In this document: piece after piece, positions 1,737 through 16,040 of the stretch | How the letters are laid out: each line of letters starts with the position of its first letter | How positions within the stretch are numbered: the first letter of the stretch is position 1 | From: Planctomycetota bacterium | GTDB lineage: Bacteria > Planctomycetota > Planctomycetia > Gemmatales > Gemmataceae | Length of the DNA stretch: 64,000 nt | NCBI GenBank assembly: GCA_016191165.1 | Contig: JACPPF010000181.1 | Span: 1 to 64,000 of the forward strand | Reading direction: 5' to 3' | The notes under the pieces: model-generated | What the model was told of the DNA's origin: nothing | Seen by the model: only the letters and a program-made list of their open reading frames with translations | Database searches by the model: none | Program-made: the position numbers and the translations under genes

Positions 1737-3035
1737 GTGTCCGCCGACCGCCGCCAGGCTGCCAGTCACCTCGAACGTCTTTTGAGCACGCGCAATCCGG
1801 AGGAGTTGCTGGCCCAGCTCGCGCCGCACCCGGGGGCCGTCCCGCCGAAGGTGCCCGGCGGGGCCCACGTGAGCGACGAGGCGGTACAGCGCCGCTGGGA
1901 CCTGATCCCCGCGCCGGACAGCCGGCGCGAACTGCTCGACGCGGACACCGAAGCGTGCAAGGAGAGCTACAAGAAAAACATCGAGCACTTCATTGGCACC
2001 GTCAAGGTTCCGGTCGGGTTGGCCGGGCCGTTGCGTGTCAATGGGCTGTTCGCCAGTGGCGACTACTACGTCCCGCTTGCCACCACGGAGGCCGCTCTTG
2101 TTGCGTCGTACAGTCGCGGAAGTCATTTGCTAACCGAAGCCGGCGGCTGCACCTCGGCCGTCCTCAACGAAGGGGTCTGTCGTTCGCCGGGCTTCGCCTT
2201 TCGTGATTTGCGCGAGTCGGGCCTGTTCGTGCTCTGGACGACCGAGCACCTGGACGAATTCCGTCGCGTGGCGGAGGCCACCACGCGATTCGGCAAGCTC
2301 ACCGACATGCGCATCACGCTCGAAGGCAACCACGTCTATCTGTGCTTCGAGTTCACGACAGGGGACGCTTCGGGACAGAACATGGTCACCCTGGCGACCG
2401 AAGCGATCTGCGCGTTCATCGAGGAGCATTGCCCGATAACGCCCCAGTACCATTTCGTCGAGGCCAACCTTTCAGGCGACAAGAAGGCCAGCGCGCAGTC
2501 GTTCCTCCTCGTTCGGGGCCGAAAGGTTTCTGCCGAGGCGTTGGTTCCCGCGGAGCTGATTGAAAAGCGTTTGCGGACGACGCCAGAACAGATGGTGAAC
2601 TTTTGGCGGATGTGCGCGATGGGCGGCATCCTGAGCGGCACGATGGGGATCCAGGGGCATTTCGCGAATGGGCTCACGGCCCTTTACATGGCGTGCGGTC
2701 AGGACGTGGCGTGCGTGGCCGAGTCGGCGGTGGGCGTGTGCCGCTACGAGGTAATGGACGGCAATCTGTACGCCAGTGTTTCGCTGCCGAACATCATGGT
2801 CGGCACGGTGGGCGGCGGCACGGGCCTACCAAGCCAGAAGGCGTGCCTGGATATTCTCGGTCTGTCCGGCGCCGGCAAGGCACAGGCGCTGGCCGAGGTG
2901 TGCGCCGGCCTGTGCCTCGCCGGGGAGCTTTCGATCATGGGCGCCATGTGCTCGGGCGATTTCAGCCGGGCTCATCGCCTGCTGGCGCGAGGCAAGCACG
3001 CAAAGAAGAAAACCGAAGGAAACGCCCATGAGTGA
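1737..3035 (+). CDS. Hydroxymethylglutaryl-CoA reductase (class I-like)
   Basis: The 432-residue protein matches HMG-CoA reductase, which reduces HMG-CoA to mevalonate. The catalytic set is visible: Glu118 in LATTEAALVAS, Lys249/250 in SGDKK, Asp323 in ACGQD and His413 in SRAHR. Signature segments VPVGLAGPL (91-99) and GTVGGGTGLPSQ (356-367) are intact. Two cofactor-region motifs deviate from the usual class I form: DASGQNM (210-216) where DAMGMNM is typical, and GQDVAC where GQDAAQ is typical. There are no N-terminal membrane spans, so it is a soluble catalytic domain. The GTG start is preceded by GGGAG at good spacing. It overlaps the next gene by 8 bases. Mevalonate enzymes are not next to it, and most planctomycetes are thought to use the MEP route, so a dedicated secondary-pathway role is inferred. 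Confidence 0.9.
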   Translation: MSADRRQAASHLERLLSTRNPEELLAQLAPHPGAVPPKVPGGAHVSDEAVQRRWDLIPAPDSRRELLDADTEACKESYKKNIEHFIGTVKVPVGLAGPLRVNGLFASGDYYVPLATTEAALVASYSRGSHLLTEAGGCTSAVLNEGVCRSPGFAFRDLRESGLFVLWTTEHLDEFRRVAEATTRFGKLTDMRITLEGNHVYLCFEFTTGDASGQNMVTLATEAICAFIEEHCPITPQYHFVEANLSGDKKASAQSFLLVRGRKVSAEALVPAELIEKRLRTTPEQMVNFWRMCAMGGILSGTMGIQGHFANGLTALYMACGQDVACVAESAVGVCRYEVMDGNLYASVSLPNIMVGTVGGGTGLPSQKACLDILGLSGAGKAQALAEVCAGLCLAGELSIMGAMCSGDFSRAHRLLARGKHAKKKTEGNAHE

Positions 3036-4041
3036 TTCCGCCCCCGGCCACGACGAGCCAAGCCCCAATATCGGCCCGGAGGGCTCCATCGCTGACCCGA
3101 GCCATTCCCTGACGGCCTACCGTTCGCCCTTGCACCGCTGGTGGACTTACCAGCGTGAGCGCTTTCCCGTTGTCGCGCATGGGGTCTTGATTCTGGCCTT
3201 CAGCTCCTCGGCCGTTTGTTTTTCGTCCCTGCTCCGCGGGCATGTCGATTTGCCGTCGCTTCTGGTGGTGACGGTAGCGTTCGGCACGGCGTTTCTCTTT
3301 TTCCTTCAATTGCGCATCGCCGACGAGTTCAAGGACTATGAGGAAGATTCTCGCTACCGCCCCTATCGCGCCGTGCCGCGCGGGCTGGTCAGCCTGCGTG
3401 AACTCGGCGTGGTCGGCGTCCTCGCGGCGGCGCTCCAGCTCGTTTTGGGTTTGGTGCTCGATCCATCGATTGTGCTCCTGCTGGCGGTCGCGTGGGTTTA
3501 CCTGGCTCTGATGAGCAAGGAGTTTTTCGTGGGCGAATGGCTGAAGGGTCATCCAGTCCCCTATCTGATTTCGCACATGGTCATCATCCCGCTGGTCGAT
3601 TTCTACGCGACGGCCTGCGACTGGTGGCCCGTCGGACAGGGAATGCCGCACGGCCTGGGCTGGTTTGTCGCGGCGAGCTATTCCAACGGCATCGTCATCG
3701 AGATTGGCCGCAAGATTCGTGCGCCCGCCGACGAGGAAACGGGCGTCAACACTTACAGCGCTATTTGGGGCCCGCGAAACGCGTGTCTGGTTTGGGTAGG
3801 CGCTTTGCTGACGACGGCCGTTTGCGCGACGCTGGCGGCGGGGCAGATCGATTTCATGGCCCCCGTGGCCATGGTGATGACGGTGATGTTACTGACGGCA
3901 GGCGTGGTGATCTGGTGCTTCCTGGCGGCGCCGACGAAAACGCGCTCGAAGCTGATCGAGACGCTGGCGGGGGTCTGGACCATTCTCTTGTACCTGAGTC
4001 TGGGCGCGGCGCCGTTGCTGTTGCGCTGGTGGTTCCCATAA
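3028..4041 (+). CDS. UbiA-superfamily prenyltransferase
   Basis: This 337-residue membrane protein carries the two acidic motifs of UbiA-type intramembrane prenyltransferases. The first is ADEFKDYEED (98-107), an NDxxDxxxD variant followed by RPYRAVPRGLVSL. The second is KIRAPADEETGVNTYS (229-244). Around eight hydrophobic segments surround them. Such enzymes join a polyprenyl diphosphate to an acceptor in the membrane and need Mg2+. The acceptor cannot be read from the sequence. The start ATG at 3028 lies inside the end of the upstream gene (ATGAGTGA overlap), so the two are probably translationally coupled. Longer upstream frames run through the reductase gene and were rejected. Confidence 0.8.
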   Translation: MSDSAPGHDEPSPNIGPEGSIADPSHSLTAYRSPLHRWWTYQRERFPVVAHGVLILAFSSSAVCFSSLLRGHVDLPSLLVVTVAFGTAFLFFLQLRIADEFKDYEEDSRYRPYRAVPRGLVSLRELGVVGVLAAALQLVLGLVLDPSIVLLLAVAWVYLALMSKEFFVGEWLKGHPVPYLISHMVIIPLVDFYATACDWWPVGQGMPHGLGWFVAASYSNGIVIEIGRKIRAPADEETGVNTYSAIWGPRNACLVWVGALLTTAVCATLAAGQIDFMAPVAMVMTVMLLTAGVVIWCFLAAPTKTRSKLIETLAGVWTILLYLSLGAAPLLLRWWFP

Positions 4042-4065
4042 CCAAGGTGGAGACGCCCGCTCTAC

Positions 4066-4093
4066 CCGCTCGCCAGAGGCGAGCGGCTAAACG
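4066..4093. repeat. Palindromic repeat, same family as the one inside miaB
   Basis: CCGCTCGCC, AGA, GGCGAGCGG form a perfect 9-bp stem with a 3-base loop, followed by CTAAACG. On the minus strand the unit reads CGTTTAGCCG then CTCGCCTCTGGCGAGCGG, which matches 25 of 28 bases of the unit embedded in the miaB reading frame at 27499-27526. It sits in the only sizeable gap among the first five genes of the cluster and could affect mRNA stability between genes 2 and 3. Confidence 0.7.
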
Positions 4094-4105
4094 AGGAAGC
4101 TGGCA

Positions 4106-6763
4106 ATGAGATATTTGATCCGTGACGACGAGGCCGAACTTGACGCCCCGCTGGGCGGCAAAGCGCGCGCCCTGGCGAGTTTGCGTAGTGCCGAGTTGCC
4201 GATTCCCGCGTGGTTCGTCGTTCGGCCCGAGGCGTTTCACGATAGCGTGCCGGCCGAACAACGTGCAAGCCTGGCCAACGTAGCCAACGTCGAGACGCTT
4301 CACCCGTCACGGCCGGTCGTGGCGGAGATCGCCGCGGCGATGGCGGAGTTGTGTCCGGACGGCGCCTCGGTGGCCGTGCGATCGTCGGCTTCGGACGAGG
4401 ATGGGGCGCACCACTCGTTCGCGGGTCAACTCGATAGCTTTCTGTTCGTGGAAGCCGCGGAGGTGCCGGCGCAGGTGGCGGCGGTTTGGCGTTCCGGCTT
4501 CGGCGAACGTCTGTTGGCGTATCGTCGCGAACACGATTTGAGCCCGGCGCCGCGGCCGCCGACGGTCCTCGTGCAAAGGATGGTGCAAGCGGACGTGGCC
4601 GGCGTCGCCTTCGGAGCGGACCCGGTGAACGGCCGCCGGCGTCTGGCGGTGGTGAGCGCCGTCTATGGCCTGGGGACCGCCCTCGTTTCGGGCGATGCCG
4701 ATGCCGATACCTATCACGTCGATCTGGAAGGCACGATCGTCGCGCGGGCGATTGCGGACAAGCGCCTGGCGCATCGCGCATCTCCAGGAAGCGGCGAGGG
4801 CGTCGCGTCCGTGCCGGTCCCCGAGGATCAGGCGCGACGCCCGGCACTGACCGACGAACAAATCCGCGCGGTCGCCGAGCTCGTGCGACGTACCGGCCGG
4901 CATTTCGGTCGGCCTCAGGACATCGAGTGGGCAATCGAGGCGGGGCAACTCTATCTTTTGCAGTCGCGCCCTATAACCTCGCTGACGCGCACGGCTGACC
5001 CCGATGGCGTTCTCAACATCTGGGACAACAGCAACATTGCCGAAAGCTACAACGGCGTGACCACTCCTCTCACGTTTTCTTTCGCCCGCCGCGCTTACGA
5101 AGAGGTCTACCGCCAGTTCTGCCGCATGTTGAGCGTGCCGGAATCAAAAATCGTCGCCAGCGCCAACGTCTTTCGCCACATGCTCGGATTGATTCGGGGG
5201 CGCGTCTATTACAATTTGCTGAACTGGTATCGGCTCATCGCGATGCTGCCGGGCTTTCAGACCAATCGCGGCTTCATGGAGCAAATGATGGGCGTCAAGG
5301 AGGGTCTACCCGAACACCTGGTCGCGGGGCTGGCAGCCTCAACATGGTGGGAACGCATGAAGGATCGCTTTGGCCTGCTAGGCAGCGTGCTGGCGATGGT
5401 GCGTAATCACTTCGGGATCCAGCGCCAGATTGCCGCGTTTTACCGTCGGCTCCACGAAGCGCTGGGCGCGGCTCGTCCGGACCTGGAGCCGCGCCGTCCC
5501 GACGAGCTGGTCGCGTACTACCGCGATCTGGAAACGAAGTTGCTGACGCGCTGGGACGCGCCGCTCATGAACGATTTCTTCGCGATGATCTTCTTCGGAA
5601 TCCTCGGCAAGTTGACGCGTTCGTGGTGCGGCGACACCGAGGGGACGCTACAAAACGATCTTCTTTGCGGCGAAGGGGGCATGGTCTCCGCGGAACCGGC
5701 GATTCGCGTGCGCGCCCTGGCGGAGGTTGCCGCCAAGGATTCGGCCTTGATCGCGGCGCTCTGCGAGGCCCCGCTGCCGGCCGTTCGCAAGAAAATCCAG
5801 GACAGTCCGGAATTCCGATTGCCCTACGAAGATTACCTGAATCGGTTCGGCGATCGCTGCCTGGAGGAATTGAAGCTGGAGAGCCCCACGCTATTCGATG
5901 ACCCTCTCACGTTGATCCGATCGGTCGGGCAATTGGCGCGGCGGCTCGCCACGGGTGGCGTGCCGCTTCCACTCAGCCAGGAGGCCGCGATCCGGGAGGC
6001 TGCGGAAACCCGCGTGCGGTCCACCCTTGGCTGGAGGCCGTTGCGGCGTCTCCTCTTCGCCTGGGTGTTGCGCAACGCGCGGGCGCGGGTGCGCGATCGC
6101 GAAAACCTGCGCTTTGAACGCACGCGCCTTTTTGGCCGGGTACGCCTCATCATCGTCGAACTCGGGCGCAAATTCCACGCATTGGACCTGATCGATGAGC
6201 CTCGCGACATCTTTTATCTCGAAGTGGAGGAGTGCCTCGGACACGTCACCGGCACCGGAACGACGACGGACCTGCGCGCGCTGGTCGCGCTGCGCAAGGC
6301 GGAGTTTGAACGCTATCGCAATACGCCGGTGCCTTCCGAACGTTTCGAAACCCGCGGCTCTGTGCACGAGGGCAACACGTATCAGGGCAAGGCGGTCGCC
6401 GCGGCGCCCCAGGGCGATCAACTCAAGGGGCTTGGTTGCTGCCCCGGCGTGGTGCGGGGCCGGGCGCGCGTCATCACCGACCCGCGTAACGCGACGCTCA
6501 GCCACGGCGACATCCTCGTCGCGGAACGCACCGACCCGGGCTGGATCATGCTCTTCCCCTCGGCCGCGGGCTTGCTCGTCGAACGCGGCAGCCTGCTGTC
6601 GCACTCGGCCATCGTGTCGCGCGAAATGGGCATTCCTTCCATCGTGGCGCTAACCGGCGTCACACGCTGGCTGAGAGATGGCGACCTGGTGGAACTGGAC
6701 GGCAGCACCGGCATCGTGGTGCGGATCTCCAGTTCGAATAAGGAGGCGCCCGATGGCCAGTGA
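4106..6763 (+). CDS. PEP-synthase / rifampin-phosphotransferase-like dikinase
   Basis: The 885-residue protein has the architecture of PEP-utilising phosphotransferases. An N-terminal PPDK-type ATP-binding domain (about 10-300) contains GGKARALASL and AVRSSASDEDG (89-100). A long central region (about 310-760) contains WDNSNIAESYNGVTTPLTFSF. A C-terminal swivelling domain holds the phospho-acceptor His833 in LSHSAIVSREMGIP. The lack of a recognisable PEP/pyruvate TIM-barrel domain, and the length, fit the rifampin-phosphotransferase-like group better than genuine PEP synthase. Enzymes of that group move a phosphate from ATP via the His to a small molecule. In this cluster the acceptor could be a pathway intermediate; that is inference. 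The start is preceded by AGGAAG. It overlaps the next gene. Confidence 0.8.
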   Translation: MRYLIRDDEAELDAPLGGKARALASLRSAELPIPAWFVVRPEAFHDSVPAEQRASLANVANVETLHPSRPVVAEIAAAMAELCPDGASVAVRSSASDEDGAHHSFAGQLDSFLFVEAAEVPAQVAAVWRSGFGERLLAYRREHDLSPAPRPPTVLVQRMVQADVAGVAFGADPVNGRRRLAVVSAVYGLGTALVSGDADADTYHVDLEGTIVARAIADKRLAHRASPGSGEGVASVPVPEDQARRPALTDEQIRAVAELVRRTGRHFGRPQDIEWAIEAGQLYLLQSRPITSLTRTADPDGVLNIWDNSNIAESYNGVTTPLTFSFARRAYEEVYRQFCRMLSVPESKIVASANVFRHMLGLIRGRVYYNLLNWYRLIAMLPGFQTNRGFMEQMMGVKEGLPEHLVAGLAASTWWERMKDRFGLLGSVLAMVRNHFGIQRQIAAFYRRLHEALGAARPDLEPRRPDELVAYYRDLETKLLTRWDAPLMNDFFAMIFFGILGKLTRSWCGDTEGTLQNDLLCGEGGMVSAEPAIRVRALAEVAAKDSALIAALCEAPLPAVRKKIQDSPEFRLPYEDYLNRFGDRCLEELKLESPTLFDDPLTLIRSVGQLARRLATGGVPLPLSQEAAIREAAETRVRSTLGWRPLRRLLFAWVLRNARARVRDRENLRFERTRLFGRVRLIIVELGRKFHALDLIDEPRDIFYLEVEECLGHVTGTGTTTDLRALVALRKAEFERYRNTPVPSERFETRGSVHEGNTYQGKAVAAAPQGDQLKGLGCCPGVVRGRARVITDPRNATLSHGDILVAERTDPGWIMLFPSAAGLLVERGSLLSHSAIVSREMGIPSIVALTGVTRWLRDGDLVELDGSTGIVVRISSSNKEAPDGQ

Positions 6764-7853
6764 AGTACAAGCAAAAGCCGACTTCACCGGCATTCGCTAC
6801 GCGCAGTGTTGGGAAGACGCCGACGTTCTCGTCAAGGCGCTCGAAGTGCAACCCGGCGATGTATGCCTGTCGATTGCGTCCGCGGGGGATAACGCGCTCG
6901 CGCTCCTCACCAGGCATCCAGCCAAGGTTATCGCTCTCGATCTGAGCCCGGCGCAACTGGCATGTGTCGAATTGCGCGTCGCCGCCTATCGAACGCTCGA
7001 ACATGCGGAACTTCTGGAGTTGATCGGCTCGACGCCCAGCCGGCGGCGAGGCGAGCTTTATTCGCGCTGTCGCCCGCAGCTGGGGGACGCTGCCCGCTCG
7101 TTCTGGGACAGCCAGCCAAAGGAGATCGCGGCGGGTATCGGCGGGGCCGGCAAGTTCGAGCGTTACTTCGGCCTGTTTCGCCGTTATCTGCTTCCGCTCG
7201 TGCATCGTCGTCGGCAAATCGACGCACTGTTGCGCGGAGGCTCTCGTGCCGAGCGACTGAAGTTCTATCGATGCCATTGGGATACCCTGCCGTGGCGACT
7301 GCTCTTTCGGGTCTTCTTCTCGCGCTTCGTAATGGGGCGCATGGGGCGTGATCCCAGTTTCTTTGCCTACGTTGAAGGAGATGTGGCGACGCGCATTCTC
7401 GAACGGGCCCGGCACGCGGTCACCGAGTTGAACCCGGCAGACAACCCGTACCTCGCATGGATCATGACGGGAAATCACCCGGGCGCGTTGCCACTGGCTT
7501 TACGGCCCGAAAATTTTGATGCGATCCGCGCCAACCTCGATCGGCTTGAGTGGCGCTGCCAGTCAGTCGAGGATTTTCTCGCCTCGCGGGAACCGCGTTC
7601 GGTGGATCGCTTCAACCTCAGCGACATCTTCGAGTACATGTCGCCGGAAAACTATCAACGTTTGCTTGAGCAAATCATCGCGGGCGCCAGACCGGGCGGG
7701 CGGCTGGCGTACTGGAACATGCTCGTCCCGCGCAGCCGGCCGGAGTCGCTTGCCAACCGCTTGCAGCCCCTGGCCGAATTGGCGGCGCGACTGCACCTTG
7801 AAGACAAAGCATTTTTCTACAGTCGCTTTGTTGTCGAAGAGGTGTTGCCATGA
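6753..7853 (+). CDS. DUF3419 / BtaA-like aminocarboxypropyltransferase
   Basis: The 366-residue product matches DUF3419, the family of BtaA, which transfers the 3-amino-3-carboxypropyl group of S-adenosylmethionine to diacylglycerol in betaine-lipid synthesis. Visible are YAQCWEDADVL (16-26), the SAM-binding SIASAGDNALALL (40-52) and ALDLSPAQLAC (61-71). Near the C-terminus FNLSDIFEYMSPENY is the second conserved block. The start is fixed by AAGGAGG eight bases before ATG 6753; it overlaps the upstream stop by 11 bases and the next start by 4. No BtaB methyltransferase is adjacent, so the product is not simply predicted to be the betaine lipid DGTS. The acceptor could be a different lipid hydroxyl made by this cluster. 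Confidence 0.8.
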   Translation: MASEVQAKADFTGIRYAQCWEDADVLVKALEVQPGDVCLSIASAGDNALALLTRHPAKVIALDLSPAQLACVELRVAAYRTLEHAELLELIGSTPSRRRGELYSRCRPQLGDAARSFWDSQPKEIAAGIGGAGKFERYFGLFRRYLLPLVHRRRQIDALLRGGSRAERLKFYRCHWDTLPWRLLFRVFFSRFVMGRMGRDPSFFAYVEGDVATRILERARHAVTELNPADNPYLAWIMTGNHPGALPLALRPENFDAIRANLDRLEWRCQSVEDFLASREPRSVDRFNLSDIFEYMSPENYQRLLEQIIAGARPGGRLAYWNMLVPRSRPESLANRLQPLAELAARLHLEDKAFFYSRFVVEEVLP

Positions 7854-9208
7854 TGAACGGGCTCGGCATTGCGATTGTCCTGGCGGTTCTGGGTGGGCTT
7901 CTCGTTGGATTGCGCCTCTATCAAAGGTGGAAAACCCCGCAGCCGGAGCTGCTGCGCAAAATCCTACACGTGGGCATGGGTCTGGTGGCGATCTCGTTCC
8001 CCTGGCTTTTTGACGCCTCCTGGCCGGTGCTGGTGCTCGGCGCCTTGAGCCTCGCCGGCATGGTGGCGATGCGCACGATCACGGCACTGAGCGGCAGCGT
8101 CGGCCAAGTCGTCAGTGGTGTTGGCCGGGCTTCGCTCGGGGAAATCTACTTCCCGCTCGCCATTGCCGTGCAGTGGCATATTTACCTGTTCGCGAGTGCT
8201 CAGCCCGAGTACCGCGTCCTGTTGTATTGCATTCCACTGCTTCTTTTGACCCTGGCGGATGCGGCGGCAGCGTTGGTGGGCGTCAACTATGGTAGCCTGC
8301 GCTTTGCAACGTCCGATGGCGTAAAAAGTGCGGAAGGTTCGCTGGCGTTTTTCCTGTGTGCGTTCCTGTGCGTTCACGTCCCGCTGCTCTTGGGCAGCGA
8401 AACGGGGCGCGTCGAGACGCTGCTGATCGCCGTCTTGCTGGCGCTCGTTGCCATGTTGTTTGAGGCGATCGCCTGGGCGGGCCTGGATAATCTGATTCTG
8501 CCCCTGGTTGGTTATTTGCTTCTCCGAATTTACCTGGGGTTGACGGTCGAAGACCTCGCCTTGCGTGTGGCAGTGACCGTCGGCATGATCGCGTTCGCTT
8601 TCGCTTATCACTCGCAAACCGCGCTGGTGGGGGACGCCCTGCTGGGCGCCTGCCTGGTCGGCTACCTTTGCTGGGCTCTGGGAAGCTCGCGCTGGATCGT
8701 GGCTCCGCTCACGGTTTTTCTCGGGCACAATCTGCTATCGCCGCGGACCGAGGCCAACAGCCAACGCATCCACACCATCCACGCGGTCATCGCCGTCTCG
8801 GCGGTTGGGCTTTTTTGGCTGTTCTATTTTCGCTTGCTGGACCAGCTCGAGACGGAATGCTTTTACCTCTTCACGCTCTCCTTCGCGGCTCAGCTTGGCA
8901 TGATCGCGGTTGCGAGATTGGGTTACGATTTTCCGCGCTGGCCGGCCGCGGTATTGCTGATGGTCTGTGTGCTGCAAGGATGGGTTTTACTAATGTTTCC
9001 CTATGTGATTCTGGAATGGTCGGAACCGACAAGCTTGACCTGGGCGATGGCGGCGCTCCCCGGCGTGGCGGTCGCCACGGTCGGTTTCTATTTCATTCAA
9101 CCCAGGGTTCGGGATTGTCCCGCGGACGGGCCGCGCTGGTTGCGGCACGTGGCCCTGGGCGCCCTCGGTTCCGCGCTGGGGTGGCTGGTCGTGAATGTTG
9201 AATGGTGA
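7850..9208 (+). CDS. Phytol/dolichol-kinase-like membrane protein
   Basis: The 452-residue protein is almost entirely hydrophobic (a dozen or more predicted spans). It carries two hallmarks of the polyprenol kinase/CTP-transferase family: ELLRKILHVGMGL (33-45), and TLADAAAALVGVNYG (134-148) followed by DGVKSAEGSLAFFL (156-169). Relatives such as phytol kinase or dolichol kinase phosphorylate a prenyl alcohol with CTP. The protein is about twice the usual length: residues beyond about 230 form a second hydrophobic half without clear motifs. The start overlaps the upstream stop by four bases (ATGA). Together with the UbiA and HMG-CoA reductase genes it points to handling of an isoprenoid alcohol in the membrane. 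Confidence 0.75.
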   Translation: MMNGLGIAIVLAVLGGLLVGLRLYQRWKTPQPELLRKILHVGMGLVAISFPWLFDASWPVLVLGALSLAGMVAMRTITALSGSVGQVVSGVGRASLGEIYFPLAIAVQWHIYLFASAQPEYRVLLYCIPLLLLTLADAAAALVGVNYGSLRFATSDGVKSAEGSLAFFLCAFLCVHVPLLLGSETGRVETLLIAVLLALVAMLFEAIAWAGLDNLILPLVGYLLLRIYLGLTVEDLALRVAVTVGMIAFAFAYHSQTALVGDALLGACLVGYLCWALGSSRWIVAPLTVFLGHNLLSPRTEANSQRIHTIHAVIAVSAVGLFWLFYFRLLDQLETECFYLFTLSFAAQLGMIAVARLGYDFPRWPAAVLLMVCVLQGWVLLMFPYVILEWSEPTSLTWAMAALPGVAVATVGFYFIQPRVRDCPADGPRWLRHVALGALGSALGWLVVNVEW

Positions 9209-9283
9209 GGGTTGAGTTATTAACTGTCAACAGATCACTCGCCACTGGCCACTGACAACTGGCCCCTTCTTCCTGGAGCCGTC

Positions 9284-10285
9284 ATGTATCGCAGAACCTG
9301 GGTTGCCAACGATGAAGCAGGGAAGCGCTTCTGCGCCGTGGCGGGATTTCCGCTGGATGCCGGGGCGATGGTTCGGCAGGCGCCGGATTCCTCCGTTTTC
9401 CTGGAGAATTCCGGCGGGGAAGTGGTCGCGCGCTGTTCGCTTTGGTGGCGTCACACACCTGGGCATGAGGGGCATACCGTCGGATTCGTTGGCCATTACG
9501 CCGTCGTCGATCCGGCCGCGGCGGCGCCCCTGTTCAACGTCGCCCTTGAGCGACTTGCCGCGCAAGGGTGCACGCTCGTGATCGGCCCGATGGATGGCAA
9601 TACCTGGCAGCGTTATCGGCTCCTCACCGAGCGCGGCGACGAACCGCCGTTCTTTCTGGAACCCGACAATCCAGATGAATGGCCCGGCCAGTTCACCGCC
9701 GCGGGCTTCACGCCATTGGCCCAGTACTATTCGGCGCTCAATACCGATTTGGCGTCAGGCGCCGCGCGCATCGAGCCGTTAGAGCGGAAGGTCGCGACCC
9801 GGGGCATTACGGTAAAATCACTACATCCCGAGAGGTTCGAGCAGGAAATGAAGCGCGTTCACGCACTATCGGTGGAAAGTTTCCGGGACAACTTTTTGTA
9901 CACGCCGATTGACGAGGTCGATTTTCTCGCTCAGTATACGCCGCTCCGCCGTTACCTGCGATCCGATTTAATCCTCCTTGCCGAGCAAGGCGACACGCTG
10001 ATCGGTTTTATCTTTGCCATCCCGAATTTGGTGCAGGCGCAAATCGGTCGGCCCCCCGATACGGCGATCATCAAGACCATGGCAGTCCATCCCGGACACG
10101 CCGGCATCGGCCTGGGCAGTTTGCTCATGGCGAGGTGCGAGCAAGCCGTGCTCGCCGCGGGTTTCACGCGGGCCATTCATGCGCTGTTTCATGAAGCGAA
10201 TCGCTCCGGTCGAATTAGCGGCCACACGGCGCGCGTGATCCGGCGGTATACGCTCTTTGGCCGACTCCTGGGAGGCGGACCATGA
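9284..10285 (+). CDS. GNAT-family acyltransferase
   Basis: The 333-residue protein has a C-terminal GNAT fold (about 175-330) with the acyl-CoA-binding segment TMAVHPGHAGIGLGSLL (265-281). The N-terminal half (about 35-150) also has GNAT-like features (FVGHYAVVD, LVIGPMDGNTWQRYRLL), suggesting a tandem or degenerate-plus-active arrangement. The substrate is unknown. It starts 75 bases after the kinase-like gene, the longest gap in the cluster; that gap contains a CACTGGCCACTGACAACTGG mini-repeat. It overlaps the following acyl-AMP ligase by four bases, so the two are likely partners: a ligase activating an acid and an acyltransferase passing an acyl group. Confidence 0.75.
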   Translation: MYRRTWVANDEAGKRFCAVAGFPLDAGAMVRQAPDSSVFLENSGGEVVARCSLWWRHTPGHEGHTVGFVGHYAVVDPAAAAPLFNVALERLAAQGCTLVIGPMDGNTWQRYRLLTERGDEPPFFLEPDNPDEWPGQFTAAGFTPLAQYYSALNTDLASGAARIEPLERKVATRGITVKSLHPERFEQEMKRVHALSVESFRDNFLYTPIDEVDFLAQYTPLRRYLRSDLILLAEQGDTLIGFIFAIPNLVQAQIGRPPDTAIIKTMAVHPGHAGIGLGSLLMARCEQAVLAAGFTRAIHALFHEANRSGRISGHTARVIRRYTLFGRLLGGGP

Positions 10286-11862
10286 ACCTCGCCCACACGC
10301 TGCTGGAACAGACGCGAGCTCGGCCCAATGCGGCGGCGATCATCGATACCTACCGCGGCAGCACCCGGATCACGACATTCGCGGAGTTGGACCTGGCCGC
10401 ATGCCGCGTCGCGCGCCTCCTGACCGATTACGGTTTGCGGCCGGGCGATGCGGTGCTCGTGTTTCACCCCATGTCAGCCGAGCTCTACGTCGCCCTGCTG
10501 GCGTTGTTTCGGCTGCGCCTCGTCGCCATGTTCCTCGACCCATCAGCTGGCCGCGAGCACATCGAGCGATGTTGCACGATGCACCCGCCGAGGGCGTTGA
10601 TCGCTGGTACGAAAGCCCACTTGCTGCGGTTGATCGTGCCGGCGCTTCGGCGCATCCCGGTCAAGTTTGTGATCGGCTGGCCGCTTCCGTTTACCGTACG
10701 CTTGTCGGCGGCCGATCGGTTGGAACCCTTGACGGAGGTGCGCGACTGTGACGCGGAGACACCGGCCCTGTTGACATTCACCAGTGGCAGCACCGGTCAA
10801 CCAAAAGGAACGGTGCGCAGCCACGGATTGCTCGCAGCGCAGTATCGCGCGCTGGCTGCCAGCCTGAACTTGACTGCGGGAGATGTGGACCTGGCGACGC
10901 TGCCGATCGTCGCTCTGGCGAATCTTGGTTCCGGCGTCACCAGTTTGATCCCCGATGCCGACCTGCGTTATCCCGGAGCCGTGGCGCCGGCGCCGATTTT
11001 CGCGCAGATTCACACGCACCAGGCAACCACCTCGGTCGCGTCGCCGGCGTTTTTCGAGTGCCTGGTCCGGCATGGCACGGAAAATGGCATGACGATTCCT
11101 TCGTTCAAGAAACTCTTCACCGGCGGAGCGCCCGTGTTCCCGCGCTTGCTCGACCAGATGCAAACACTCGCTCCCAACGCGGAGGTCGTTGCGCTTTATG
11201 GCTCCACGGAGGCCGAGCCCATTGCCCATGTCAGTCGGCGCGAAGTGGGAGCGGATGACCTGAAGGCGATGCTCGCGGGCCAAGGCCTGCTTGCCGGGGC
11301 TCCGGTCGAGCAGATTCGCCTTCGCATCCTGCGCGACCAGTGGGGCACGCCAGTCGGGCCATTCGATTCAGGCACATTCGCGGCGAACTGCTGTGGCGTA
11401 AATGTTCCAGGCGAAATCGTCGTCAGCGGCGGCCATGTGATACCGGGTTATCTTCGCGGCGAGGGAGACGAGGAGACCAAGTTCCGCGTGGACGGCACAA
11501 TCTGGCACCGCACGGGCGACGCCGGTTTTCTCGACGACCGCGGCCGGCTTTGGCTGCTCGGCCGCTGCGTCGCCCGCATCCGCGATGCTCGGGGTGACCT
11601 CTACCCGTTCGCGGCCGAGACCGCGGTCTATCAAAATCCGAACGTGCGCCGCGCTGCCCTTGTGGCGCAAAACGGCAGGCGCATTCTGGCCATCGAATTC
11701 TATGAAGGGCGCCGCCCGCACGACCTCGACGCCCTGCGCGCCGCATTGGCCTGGGCGCAACTTGACGAGATTCGGCCGTGCCCGCACATCCCAGTGGATA
11801 AACGCCACAATGCCAAGATCGACTACCCTGCCCTAAATCGCCTACTGGACAAAGGAACCTGA
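10282..11862 (+). CDS. AMP-dependent acyl ligase, OleC-like
   Basis: The 526-residue protein belongs to the ANL adenylating superfamily. The P-loop-like motif FTSGSTGQPKG (166-176) is followed by TVRSHG, and later motifs YGSTEAEP and WHRTGDAGFLDDRGRLWLLGR are present. The C-terminal catalytic Lys is plausibly in HIPVDKRHNAKIDY. Sequence feel and length resemble OleC, the beta-lactone synthetase of olefin synthesis, more than fatty-acyl-CoA ligases; OleA, OleB and OleD are not nearby. It may activate a carboxylic or beta-hydroxy acid for the adjacent GNAT. It is the last gene of the cluster and ends 36 bases before the convergent dapL. Confidence 0.75.
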   Translation: MNLAHTLLEQTRARPNAAAIIDTYRGSTRITTFAELDLAACRVARLLTDYGLRPGDAVLVFHPMSAELYVALLALFRLRLVAMFLDPSAGREHIERCCTMHPPRALIAGTKAHLLRLIVPALRRIPVKFVIGWPLPFTVRLSAADRLEPLTEVRDCDAETPALLTFTSGSTGQPKGTVRSHGLLAAQYRALAASLNLTAGDVDLATLPIVALANLGSGVTSLIPDADLRYPGAVAPAPIFAQIHTHQATTSVASPAFFECLVRHGTENGMTIPSFKKLFTGGAPVFPRLLDQMQTLAPNAEVVALYGSTEAEPIAHVSRREVGADDLKAMLAGQGLLAGAPVEQIRLRILRDQWGTPVGPFDSGTFAANCCGVNVPGEIVVSGGHVIPGYLRGEGDEETKFRVDGTIWHRTGDAGFLDDRGRLWLLGRCVARIRDARGDLYPFAAETAVYQNPNVRRAALVAQNGRRILAIEFYEGRRPHDLDALRAALAWAQLDEIRPCPHIPVDKRHNAKIDYPALNRLLDKGT

Positions 11863-11898: not shown

Positions 11899-13131
11899 TC
11901 AGAAACGCATGGGCAATTTCCCCAGACGATTGGCGGTTTCCGTCATCAGGGCGTCTTCCTCGTTTTCATCCTTCGCGAGATACGTGACGGAAAATCTCAG
12001 GTAGGGGCCAGCGTTATCCCAGGGAACGCAAATCACCGACTGCTGGTTGATCAGAAATTGCGATGCGTCCTCGGCGTTCTTGAAGCTAAGGTCGCCGCAG
12101 CCAGTTGGCGCTTTGACGTACAGGAAATAGGTCCCGCCCGGCATTTTCGCCTGGAAACCAACGCGGTTGAGCACGTCCACAAGTTTCTTTAGACGGCGGT
12201 GGTACTTGGCGCGGGTGCGCTCGCCGATTTCCGGGTGATCGAGGGCCGCCTTGGCCGCCTGCTGAATTGCCATGAACTGGCCTGAGTCGCTGTTGTCCTT
12301 GACGTCGGCATACGCCTGCACAATCTTCGGATGCCCGGCCACGAACGCCATGCGCCAGCCGATCATGTTGAATCCTTTCGACATCGAATGAATCTCGACG
12401 CCGACCTCCTTCGCGCCGTCCATCTGCAAAAAACTCAAGGGCGGGTCGCCATAGCTCAACAGAATATGGGCGGCATCCTGAATGATGATGATCTGATTCG
12501 CCTGTGCGAACTCGATGACGCGTTTGTAGAACTCGCGCGTGGCAACCGCGCCGGTCGGGCTGTTCGGGTAATTGATGACGAGCAACTTGGCCTTTTTTCG
12601 CACCTCGGCGGGAATGCCGTCGAGATCGGGATAGAAGCCGTTCTCTTCGCGCAGAGGCAGTTCGTGAACCTTTCCGCCGTAGTATTTCGTATGCGTGCCC
12701 GCGACCGGATAGCCGGGGACGGTCATCAGGGTGACATCGCCCGGGTTGATAAAGGCGGCGGGCAGCATCGCCAGCGCGGGCTTGGAGCCAATCGCGTGAA
12801 GGACTTCGGTTTCCGCGTTGAGGGTGACGCCGAAAACCTTTTTCATGAAGCCAGCGGCGGCCTCCTTGAACGCAGCGATGCCGTTGTCGGCATAGCCGCG
12901 GTTTTCGAGTTTGTCGATCTCACGCTTGGCGACGTCACGCACGAGCAGGTCCGCCATGTCGTCGTTTTCGCCGATGCCAAAGTCGAGGAGCGTGCGCTCG
13001 GGATGATCGCTCATGACGGCGCGTTTGGCGCGTTTGATCTTCTCGAACTTGTAGATTTCGGTTCCCTTGCCATAATTCGCCCCGCCGACGCGATCGGCAA
13101 AAAGGCCCTGGAACCACGGATCGCCATTCAT
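11899..13131 (-). CDS. dapL: LL-diaminopimelate aminotransferase
   Basis: The 410-residue protein is a class I/II PLP aminotransferase of the DapL family, which converts tetrahydrodipicolinate to LL-diaminopimelate in one step in lysine synthesis. The PLP lysine is Lys252 in SMSKGFNMIGWR, with the substrate-binding NYPNSPTG at 188-195. The N-terminal YGKGTEIYKFEKIKRAK and GIGENDDMADLL are typical of this family. Planctomycetes and chlamydiae commonly use this pathway. It is transcribed alone, convergent with the lipid cluster and divergent from the sigma factor gene. Confidence 0.88.
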   Translation of the reverse strand: MNGDPWFQGLFADRVGGANYGKGTEIYKFEKIKRAKRAVMSDHPERTLLDFGIGENDDMADLLVRDVAKREIDKLENRGYADNGIAAFKEAAAGFMKKVFGVTLNAETEVLHAIGSKPALAMLPAAFINPGDVTLMTVPGYPVAGTHTKYYGGKVHELPLREENGFYPDLDGIPAEVRKKAKLLVINYPNSPTGAVATREFYKRVIEFAQANQIIIIQDAAHILLSYGDPPLSFLQMDGAKEVGVEIHSMSKGFNMIGWRMAFVAGHPKIVQAYADVKDNSDSGQFMAIQQAAKAALDHPEIGERTRAKYHRRLKKLVDVLNRVGFQAKMPGGTYFLYVKAPTGCGDLSFKNAEDASQFLINQQSVICVPWDNAGPYLRFSVTYLAKDENEEDALMTETANRLGKLPMRF

Positions 13132-13981: not shown

Positions 13982-14037
13982 GCCGCTTGCGGCTTAGCGC
14001 TCGCGCGACACCACGCGAGCGCTAAGCCGCAAGCGGC
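13982..14037. repeat. Perfect 24-bp palindromic repeat (REP-like)
   Basis: Two perfect 24-base arms, beginning GCCGCTTGCGGC and ending GCTCGCG, enclose an 8-base loop. The element fills the gap between the convergent sigma factor and DUF1080 genes and could terminate both, although no T-run follows on either side. Related units occur at 15985, 17631, 20269 and 33762, so this is a repeat family rather than a simple terminator. Confidence 0.8.
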
Positions 14038-15980: not shown

Positions 15981-15984
15981 CAGA

Positions 15985-16040
15985 GCCGCTTGCGCCTTGG
16001 CGCTGAGCAAGCGCCCGGCGAATGCCAGGCCACAAGCGAC
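15985..16040. repeat. Degenerate REP-like palindrome between operon genes 1 and 2
   Basis: GCCGCTTGCGCCTTGGCGCT (15985-16004) pairs imperfectly with GCCAGGCCACAAGCGAC (16024-16040). It is a diverged member of the family seen perfectly at 13982-14037 and lies in the short gap between the ATPase and permease genes. Confidence 0.5.

Follow-up and report, generated by a model that had tools for sequence, protein, structure and literature searches.

What would a bacterium make with a 3-hydroxy-3-methylglutaryl-CoA (HMG-CoA) reductase (HMGR), a UbiA-superfamily prenyltransferase, a phosphoenolpyruvate (PEP) synthase-like dikinase, a BtaA-like aminocarboxypropyl transferase (DUF3419), a putative polyprenol-kinase-like protein (PolK), a tandem GNAT acyltransferase and an AMP-forming ligase, all encoded side by side? 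The question is raised by a stretch of 64,000 nucleotides from a planctomycete of the family Gemmataceae (assembly GCA_016191165.1, contig JACPPF010000181.1, positions 1 to 64,000), referred to here as the window, in which the corresponding seven open reading frames (ORFs) occupy positions 1737-11862, all on the + strand. The host genome comprises 7.2 Mb, and the named genomes closest to it are metagenome assemblies of planctomycetes. A sequence-only reading of the window had described seven genes in the same direction with four overlaps of 8, 11, 4 and 4 bases, and its ORF coordinates match exactly; the intergenic distances are, in cluster order, -8, +64, -11, -4, +75 and -4 bases, and most of the starts are preceded by a purine-rich stretch resembling a ribosome-binding site. 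The same reading knew of no described pathway with this set, and in the searchable literature (most subscription journals lie outside it) we likewise found no description of the seven enzymes together, or of DUF3419 combined with HMGR or UbiA. One paper (PMC12419801) matched by wording only and deals with different operons. The newness lies in the pathway, whereas the constituent enzyme families are already known. As laid out below, we regard it as about 95% probable that the seven genes form one functional pathway.

Conservation of the gene set

Homologues of PolK were found in six of the 102 genomes of the order and at 27 loci in the GTDB collection, which span Planctomycetota, Gammaproteobacteria, Eremiobacterota, Cyanobacteria including Obscuribacterales, Verrucomicrobiota, Rokubacteria, Chloroflexi and Gemmatimonadota. 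The gene set is present in at least eight phyla and, in addition, on an alphaproteobacterial plasmid. The order HMGR-UbiA-dikinase-DUF3419-PolK-GNAT-ligase is kept in eleven other loci (L013, L015, L016, L017, L022, L024, L025, L028, L037, L039 and L049), three of which (L016, L028 and L037) have inserted genes, while permuted but complete sets occur at four loci (L030, L036, L108 and L109, the last two representing two further genomes of the phylum). The complete cluster at L049 (NZ_CP121116.1) is plasmid-borne in Roseinatronobacter sp. S2, an alphaproteobacterium that has been cultured, and its HMGR gene is split across the origin of the plasmid record; in the existing annotation, the genes of this copy appear in part as hypothetical proteins. 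Because the same order recurs across phyla, the gene set is not a product of chance; the cluster is widespread and apparently horizontally transferred. Synteny of HMGR with DUF3419, a search for which had been proposed in the sequence-only reading, is conserved across phyla.

That reading had also named dispersal of the genes in close relatives as an outcome that would refute its proposal. Cyanobacteria and a few relatives (G028 and G040) do show such dispersal, yet most of the tested components can still be found in them. In G040, an HMGR-UbiA-dikinase-DUF3419 block and a PolK-GNAT-ligase block are found on separate contigs. Scattering goes further in G028 and in two cyanobacteria, G111 (Roseofilum) and G104, all three of which still contain HMGR, DUF3419 and UbiA with cluster-type scores. 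Cluster-type DUF3419 (579-654 bits) and UbiA are encoded in all eight split or partial carriers, the tested components of the scattered sets are mostly retained as single copies, and Roseofilum contains a cluster-type ligase (51%) on another contig. Given that most tested components survive such scattering, dispersal does not refute the pathway, and their retention without linkage favours a shared pathway over passive linkage. The Obscuribacterales contain the other six genes without HMGR at four loci, at one of which (L021) the ligase gene is cut by the contig end.

The pairwise distances among the six non-HMGR genes correlate with r values of 0.70-0.95, as calculated without a background control for host relatedness. 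Two kinds of gene fusion were also recorded. The dikinase and DUF3419 are joined in one frame in Obscuribacterales (1337 and 1340 amino acids at L029 and L031), and GNAT and ligase are joined in one frame in a cyanobacterium (859 amino acids at L036). We read the two fusions as marking consecutive steps, and they fit a dikinase/aminocarboxypropyl pair and an acyl-activation/N-acylation pair, respectively. Apparent further fusions, in the form of long ORFs in L017, L037 and L039, were judged from the reading frames to be frame extensions and were not counted.

An HMG-CoA reductase outside a mevalonate pathway

As judged from the Pfam and NCBIfam profile scans used for all proteins of the window, the first gene of the cluster (1737..3035, + strand, GTG start) codes for an HMGR-like class I reductase (PF00368, 378 bits; TIGR00533, 324 bits at a cut-off of 441.8). 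It is the sole PF00368 match in the window's genome, and exactly one such gene is present in 20 of the 25 carrier genomes. The sequence-only reading had suggested checking the genome for other mevalonate genes: the profile search of the window's genome yielded no match for either HMG-CoA synthase or mevalonate-diphosphate decarboxylase, and DXR, a marker of the methylerythritol phosphate (MEP) pathway, is present. Over all 25 carriers, HMG-CoA synthase (PF01154) is matched in three genomes, weakly in each case, and mevalonate-diphosphate decarboxylase (TIGR01240) exceeds its cut-off in one, while DXR is found in 23, including the window's genome. The cluster HMGR is not a mevalonate-pathway enzyme.

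The residues of 19 cluster copies (18 complete, and L041 truncated) were compared with those of the archaeal and plant enzymes 6hr7 and 8ecg, using human numbering. E559, R590, D690, K691 and K692 are kept in all copies, and D767 and H866 in all 18 complete ones, so that the catalytic Glu, Lys, Asp and His are all intact; the last two positions cannot be read in L041, because this copy is truncated before the C-terminal Asp and His. The HMG pocket is altered in every one of the 19 copies, with S684 replaced by E, K735 deleted, N755 replaced by Q or H, M657 by Q and P693 by A. We take S684, K735 and N755 to be HMG-binding residues, in line with the roles of these positions in human HMGR (1dq8-type structures). 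The cluster enzymes therefore share with the class I HMGRs of mevalonate pathways (6hr7, 8ecg and human 1dq8) homology over about 350 residues, the PF00368 domain, the catalytic residues Glu559, Lys691, Asp767 and His866, and Arg590, but differ from them at the HMG-specific positions S684, K735 and N755 as well as at M657 and P693, and in that most of their hosts lack a mevalonate pathway. From this pattern we infer a changed acyl substrate; the cluster HMGR may well not use HMG-CoA and therefore need not feed isoprenoid synthesis.

Orphan HMGRs with 58% identity to the cluster HMGR were noted on a Vibrio fluvialis plasmid (L048, 14992-16254) and on a Photobacterium replicon (L050, 12001-13227). 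Their HMG pockets are half-changed, the Vibrio copy having D at position 684, a deletion at 735 and N at 755, and none of the other six cluster genes is annotated beside it on the plasmid.

Properties of the other six enzymes

The UbiA-superfamily protein (3028..4041, + strand) passes the PF01040 model with 48 bits (cut-off 34.2), while its best NCBIfam match, PRK13592, stays below cut-off. Its motif I, ADE[FH]KD...D, is invariant or near-invariant across the aligned copies.

The dikinase (4106..6763, + strand) combines an ATP-grasp and a phospho-His domain (PF01326, 204 bits; PF00391, 80 bits), and no PEP-binding barrel was detected by the profile scans. An assignment as PEP synthase was rejected on account of the missing C-terminal PEP/pyruvate-binding domain and of scores below cut-off for all PEP-synthase models. 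The best PDB matches are 5fbs and 5hv1, which are annotated as phosphoenolpyruvate synthase and which we take to be rifampin phosphotransferases. The phospho-His motif GSLLSH.AIV is found in 20 of the 21 copies, the exception being L036, where the gene is broken. The same set of ATP-grasp and phospho-His domains occurs in Rph and the prodigiosin ligases PigC and RedH, but the dikinase reaches scores of 310-340 bits, far under the respective equivalog cut-offs of 999-1350 bits, and no rifamycin or prodigiosin genes were seen adjoining it.

The DUF3419 protein (6753..7853, + strand; PF11899, 256 bits) belongs to the same Pfam family as BtaA, the S-adenosylmethionine (SAM):diacylglycerol 3-amino-3-carboxypropyl transferase of diacylglyceryltrimethylhomoserine (DGTS) synthesis, whose aminocarboxypropyl transfer from SAM has been reviewed (PMC10491745). 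It is 49.5% identical to the Roseinatronobacter cluster copy, but only 25-28% to rhizobial DUF3419 proteins over most of its length, and differs further from BtaA in its association with a dikinase, to which it is fused in some copies. No BtaB-like N-methyltransferase is encoded among the seven cluster genes of the window, the rest of the genome not having been searched for it. With these identities to the rhizobial relatives and no BtaB partner in the cluster, the protein was not accepted as BtaA proper.

PolK (7850..9208, + strand) is a two-domain membrane protein assigned from motifs and alignments: it has no match of its own in Pfam or NCBIfam and none by sequence in PDB, and its AlphaFold model, with a predicted local distance difference test score (pLDDT) of 90.4, gave no Foldseek match in PDB with E < 0.001. 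The N-terminal half resembles CTP-transferases and polyprenol kinases by the motifs RK..H, LADA.AALIG..YG and KS.EGS, and aligns with CdsA and DUF92 at D..G..G..KS.EG with a hhalign E value of about 5e-4, compared with 0.06-0.12 for UbiA controls. In two independent genomes, the C-terminal half aligns with the start of DUF92 at E values of 0.0011 (G102) and 0.017 (G103), below cut-off, and a bridging relative (L107) contains this domain at 75 bits. PolK shares its N-terminal motif and, weakly, its C-terminal half with the DUF92-type phytol-salvage kinases VTE5 and VTE6, and the relative L107 has a clear DUF92 domain, whereas the PolK of the window has no significant family match and the DUF92 half is missing at five loci. 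We regard it as likely to be polyprenol-kinase-like. Of the seven families named in the sequence-only reading, six are borne out by Pfam and NCBIfam, and the polyprenol-kinase-like label has this indirect support. A planctomycete protein at L103 (975-2309) combines a SerB-like phosphatase with a C-terminal CTP-transferase-like region.

The GNAT protein (9284..10285, + strand; PF00583, 44 bits) has an AlphaFold model with a pLDDT of 90.8, whose best fold matches, 7q3a and 2wpw among them, are tandem GNATs, in keeping with a GNAT fold. The last gene (10282..11862, + strand) codes for an ANL-superfamily AMP-forming ligase (PF00501, 181 bits) with the motifs TSGSTGQPK, YGSTE, TGD and NAKID. It resembles the OleC/PRK09274 ligases in its scores (PRK09274, 357 bits; OleC models, 210 and 202 bits, all below cut-offs) and in the NAKID-type catalytic Lys motif, but neither in the window nor at the surveyed loci do the annotated neighbours include OleA, OleB or OleD. 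An identity as OleC beta-lactone synthetase was rejected, as the two OleC scores compare with NCBIfam equivalog cut-offs of 900 and 850 bits, respectively.

Genomic neighbourhood

Several copies of the cluster are accompanied by further genes: P450 and PAP2_3 genes beside L013 and L016, P450 and sulfotransferase genes beside L022 with the same ORF families at L025, an MMPL transporter gene inside the operon at L028, and an ABC ATPase gene near L037. Such neighbours, with P450, PAP2-type and sulfotransferase genes as well as genes for MMPL or other transporters, suggest further decoration of the product, and its export. An ORF of 882 amino acids (L011, 3121-5769), in which a PAP2-like membrane region is joined to a P450, adjoins the PolK-GNAT-ligase block in G039, and an ORF matching it is found in G040 (L018).

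In the window, the cluster is followed by a convergent gene for an LL-diaminopimelate aminotransferase (11899-13131), which scores above its NCBIfam cut-off. On the other side, a gene for an IS200-like/REP-associated tyrosine transposase (842-1663, - strand) starts 74 bases before the HMGR start; its region contains inverted arms at 810-834 and 1580-1604 (96% match) and an 18-base tandem direct repeat at 785-820. A perfect 24-base palindrome with an 8-base loop, resembling a repetitive extragenic palindromic (REP) element, follows a sigma-factor-like ORF at 13982-14037, and a 91% inverted copy of one of its arms lies 2 kb away at 15983-16004.

Proposed pathway and alternatives

The cluster of the window is best explained as a complete copy of a pathway for a specialised lipid or lipid-like metabolite. 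Our best single guess for the product, which we put forward tentatively, is a prenylated, aminocarboxypropylated and N-acylated lipid. The sequence-only reading, which had suggested a prenyl-based membrane lipid with an aminocarboxypropyl head group and an acyl group, is partly supported: its checks on synteny and on mevalonate genes speak for it, while the product that it named is an inference. PolK would phosphorylate a prenyl alcohol, and UbiA would attach the prenyl group to a polar acceptor. The dikinase may transfer a phosphoryl group to an oxygen and so activate it, with ATP converted to AMP, upon which DUF3419 would place the 3-amino-3-carboxypropyl group from SAM, these being the two steps fused in Obscuribacterales. 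The AMP ligase would then activate an acyl group for transfer to the new amine by the tandem GNAT, the pair fused in a cyanobacterium, and the HMGR-like enzyme would reduce the thioester of a substrate other than, or besides, HMG-CoA to an alcohol. A bolder version, which we consider a long shot, is a ceramide-like lipid whose route of synthesis would have no relation to that of sphingolipids. A prenyl or alkyl chain would carry the SAM-derived aminocarboxypropyl group in ether linkage, the AMP ligase would activate the carboxylate of this group for reduction to an alcohol by the re-purposed HMGR, and the GNAT would N-acylate its amine, while the PAP2-type enzymes beside several copies might add a phospho head group. 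A substrate bearing an amine would be in accord with the acidic residue at position 684 and the missing K735.

Several observations weigh against these assignments or against a strictly common pathway. The four Obscuribacterales carriers have no HMGR at all, and the HMGR step is therefore not universal; the HMGR distances also correlate less with those of the other six genes (r 0.43-0.68), and the lack of a control for host relatedness applies to all these correlations. A cluster-type ligase was not found in G028 or G104, which are both draft genomes. The motif II region of UbiA reads E..GRK.R....E and misses the usual aspartates, which makes even prenyl transfer uncertain. DUF3419 is assigned a function at the family level only, and PolK lacks its DUF92 half at the five loci mentioned above.

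Among the other explanations, a specialised metabolite that is not a lipid but is made by the same kinds of reactions, for instance an amino-acid signal bearing a prenyl or acyl group, an antibiotic or a siderophore-like compound, deserves serious attention, even if we doubt it. It would agree with the patchy distribution of PolK in the order, the plasmid copy, the kinship of the dikinase with PigC, RedH and Rph, and the P450, sulfotransferase and transporter genes nearby, but the two integral membrane enzymes (UbiA and PolK), the MMPL transporter within one copy and the relation of DUF3419 to BtaA favour a lipophilic product. The same relation might point to a variant of betaine lipid, with DUF3419 acting as BtaA on diacylglycerol and the other enzymes modifying the homoserine head group, N-acylation replacing N-methylation. 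The PF11899 score, the operon GNAT, which could acylate the homoserine amine, and the existence of planctomycete BtaA sequences (PMC10685587) would fit, yet this is unlikely in view of the low identity to the rhizobial proteins, the missing BtaB partner in the cluster of the window, and the fact that neither HMGR nor UbiA nor the dikinase takes part in DGTS synthesis, for which BtaA and BtaB suffice (Riekhof 2005, as cited in PMC10685587).

Two further explanations leave HMGR its usual reaction. Mevalonate might serve as a building block, with HMGR producing it from HMG-CoA derived, for example, from leucine catabolism, the ligase forming mevalonyl-CoA and the GNAT mevalonylating an amine. Mevalonyl transfer to an amine is known from the SidI/SidF chemistry of fungal siderophores, and the conserved catalytic residues and Arg590 of the cluster HMGRs, the adjoining and once fused GNAT and ligase genes, and the absence of downstream mevalonate enzymes from most hosts would agree with it. 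The changes of S684, K735 and N755 in every cluster HMGR, the few and weak HMG-CoA synthase matches among the carriers, and the presence of ligase and GNAT without HMGR in Obscuribacterales render it rather improbable, however. Finally, HMGR and PolK might raise isoprenoid precursors for a UbiA-dependent quinone or terpenoid, with the remaining genes serving unrelated lipid metabolism, as could be thought from HMGR adjoining UbiA in most copies and from three of the seven gene names denoting isoprenoid enzymes. This is hardly credible for a genome without HMG-CoA synthase or decarboxylase but with an MEP marker, and for seven genes that stay together in different phyla as well as on a plasmid, with fusions tying the other genes to each other.

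Whichever product is formed, one functional pathway of seven enzymes offers a testable reason for the presence of a lone HMGR in some MEP-pathway bacteria, a question still unanswered for Streptomyces in a 2026 review (PMC13001223). It can further be predicted from the cluster that an aminocarboxypropyl transferase of the BtaA family acts on a new acceptor and that a PEP-synthase-like dikinase has a new role. The carriers of the cluster include cultured or named hosts, namely Roseinatronobacter sp. S2 and Roseofilum.

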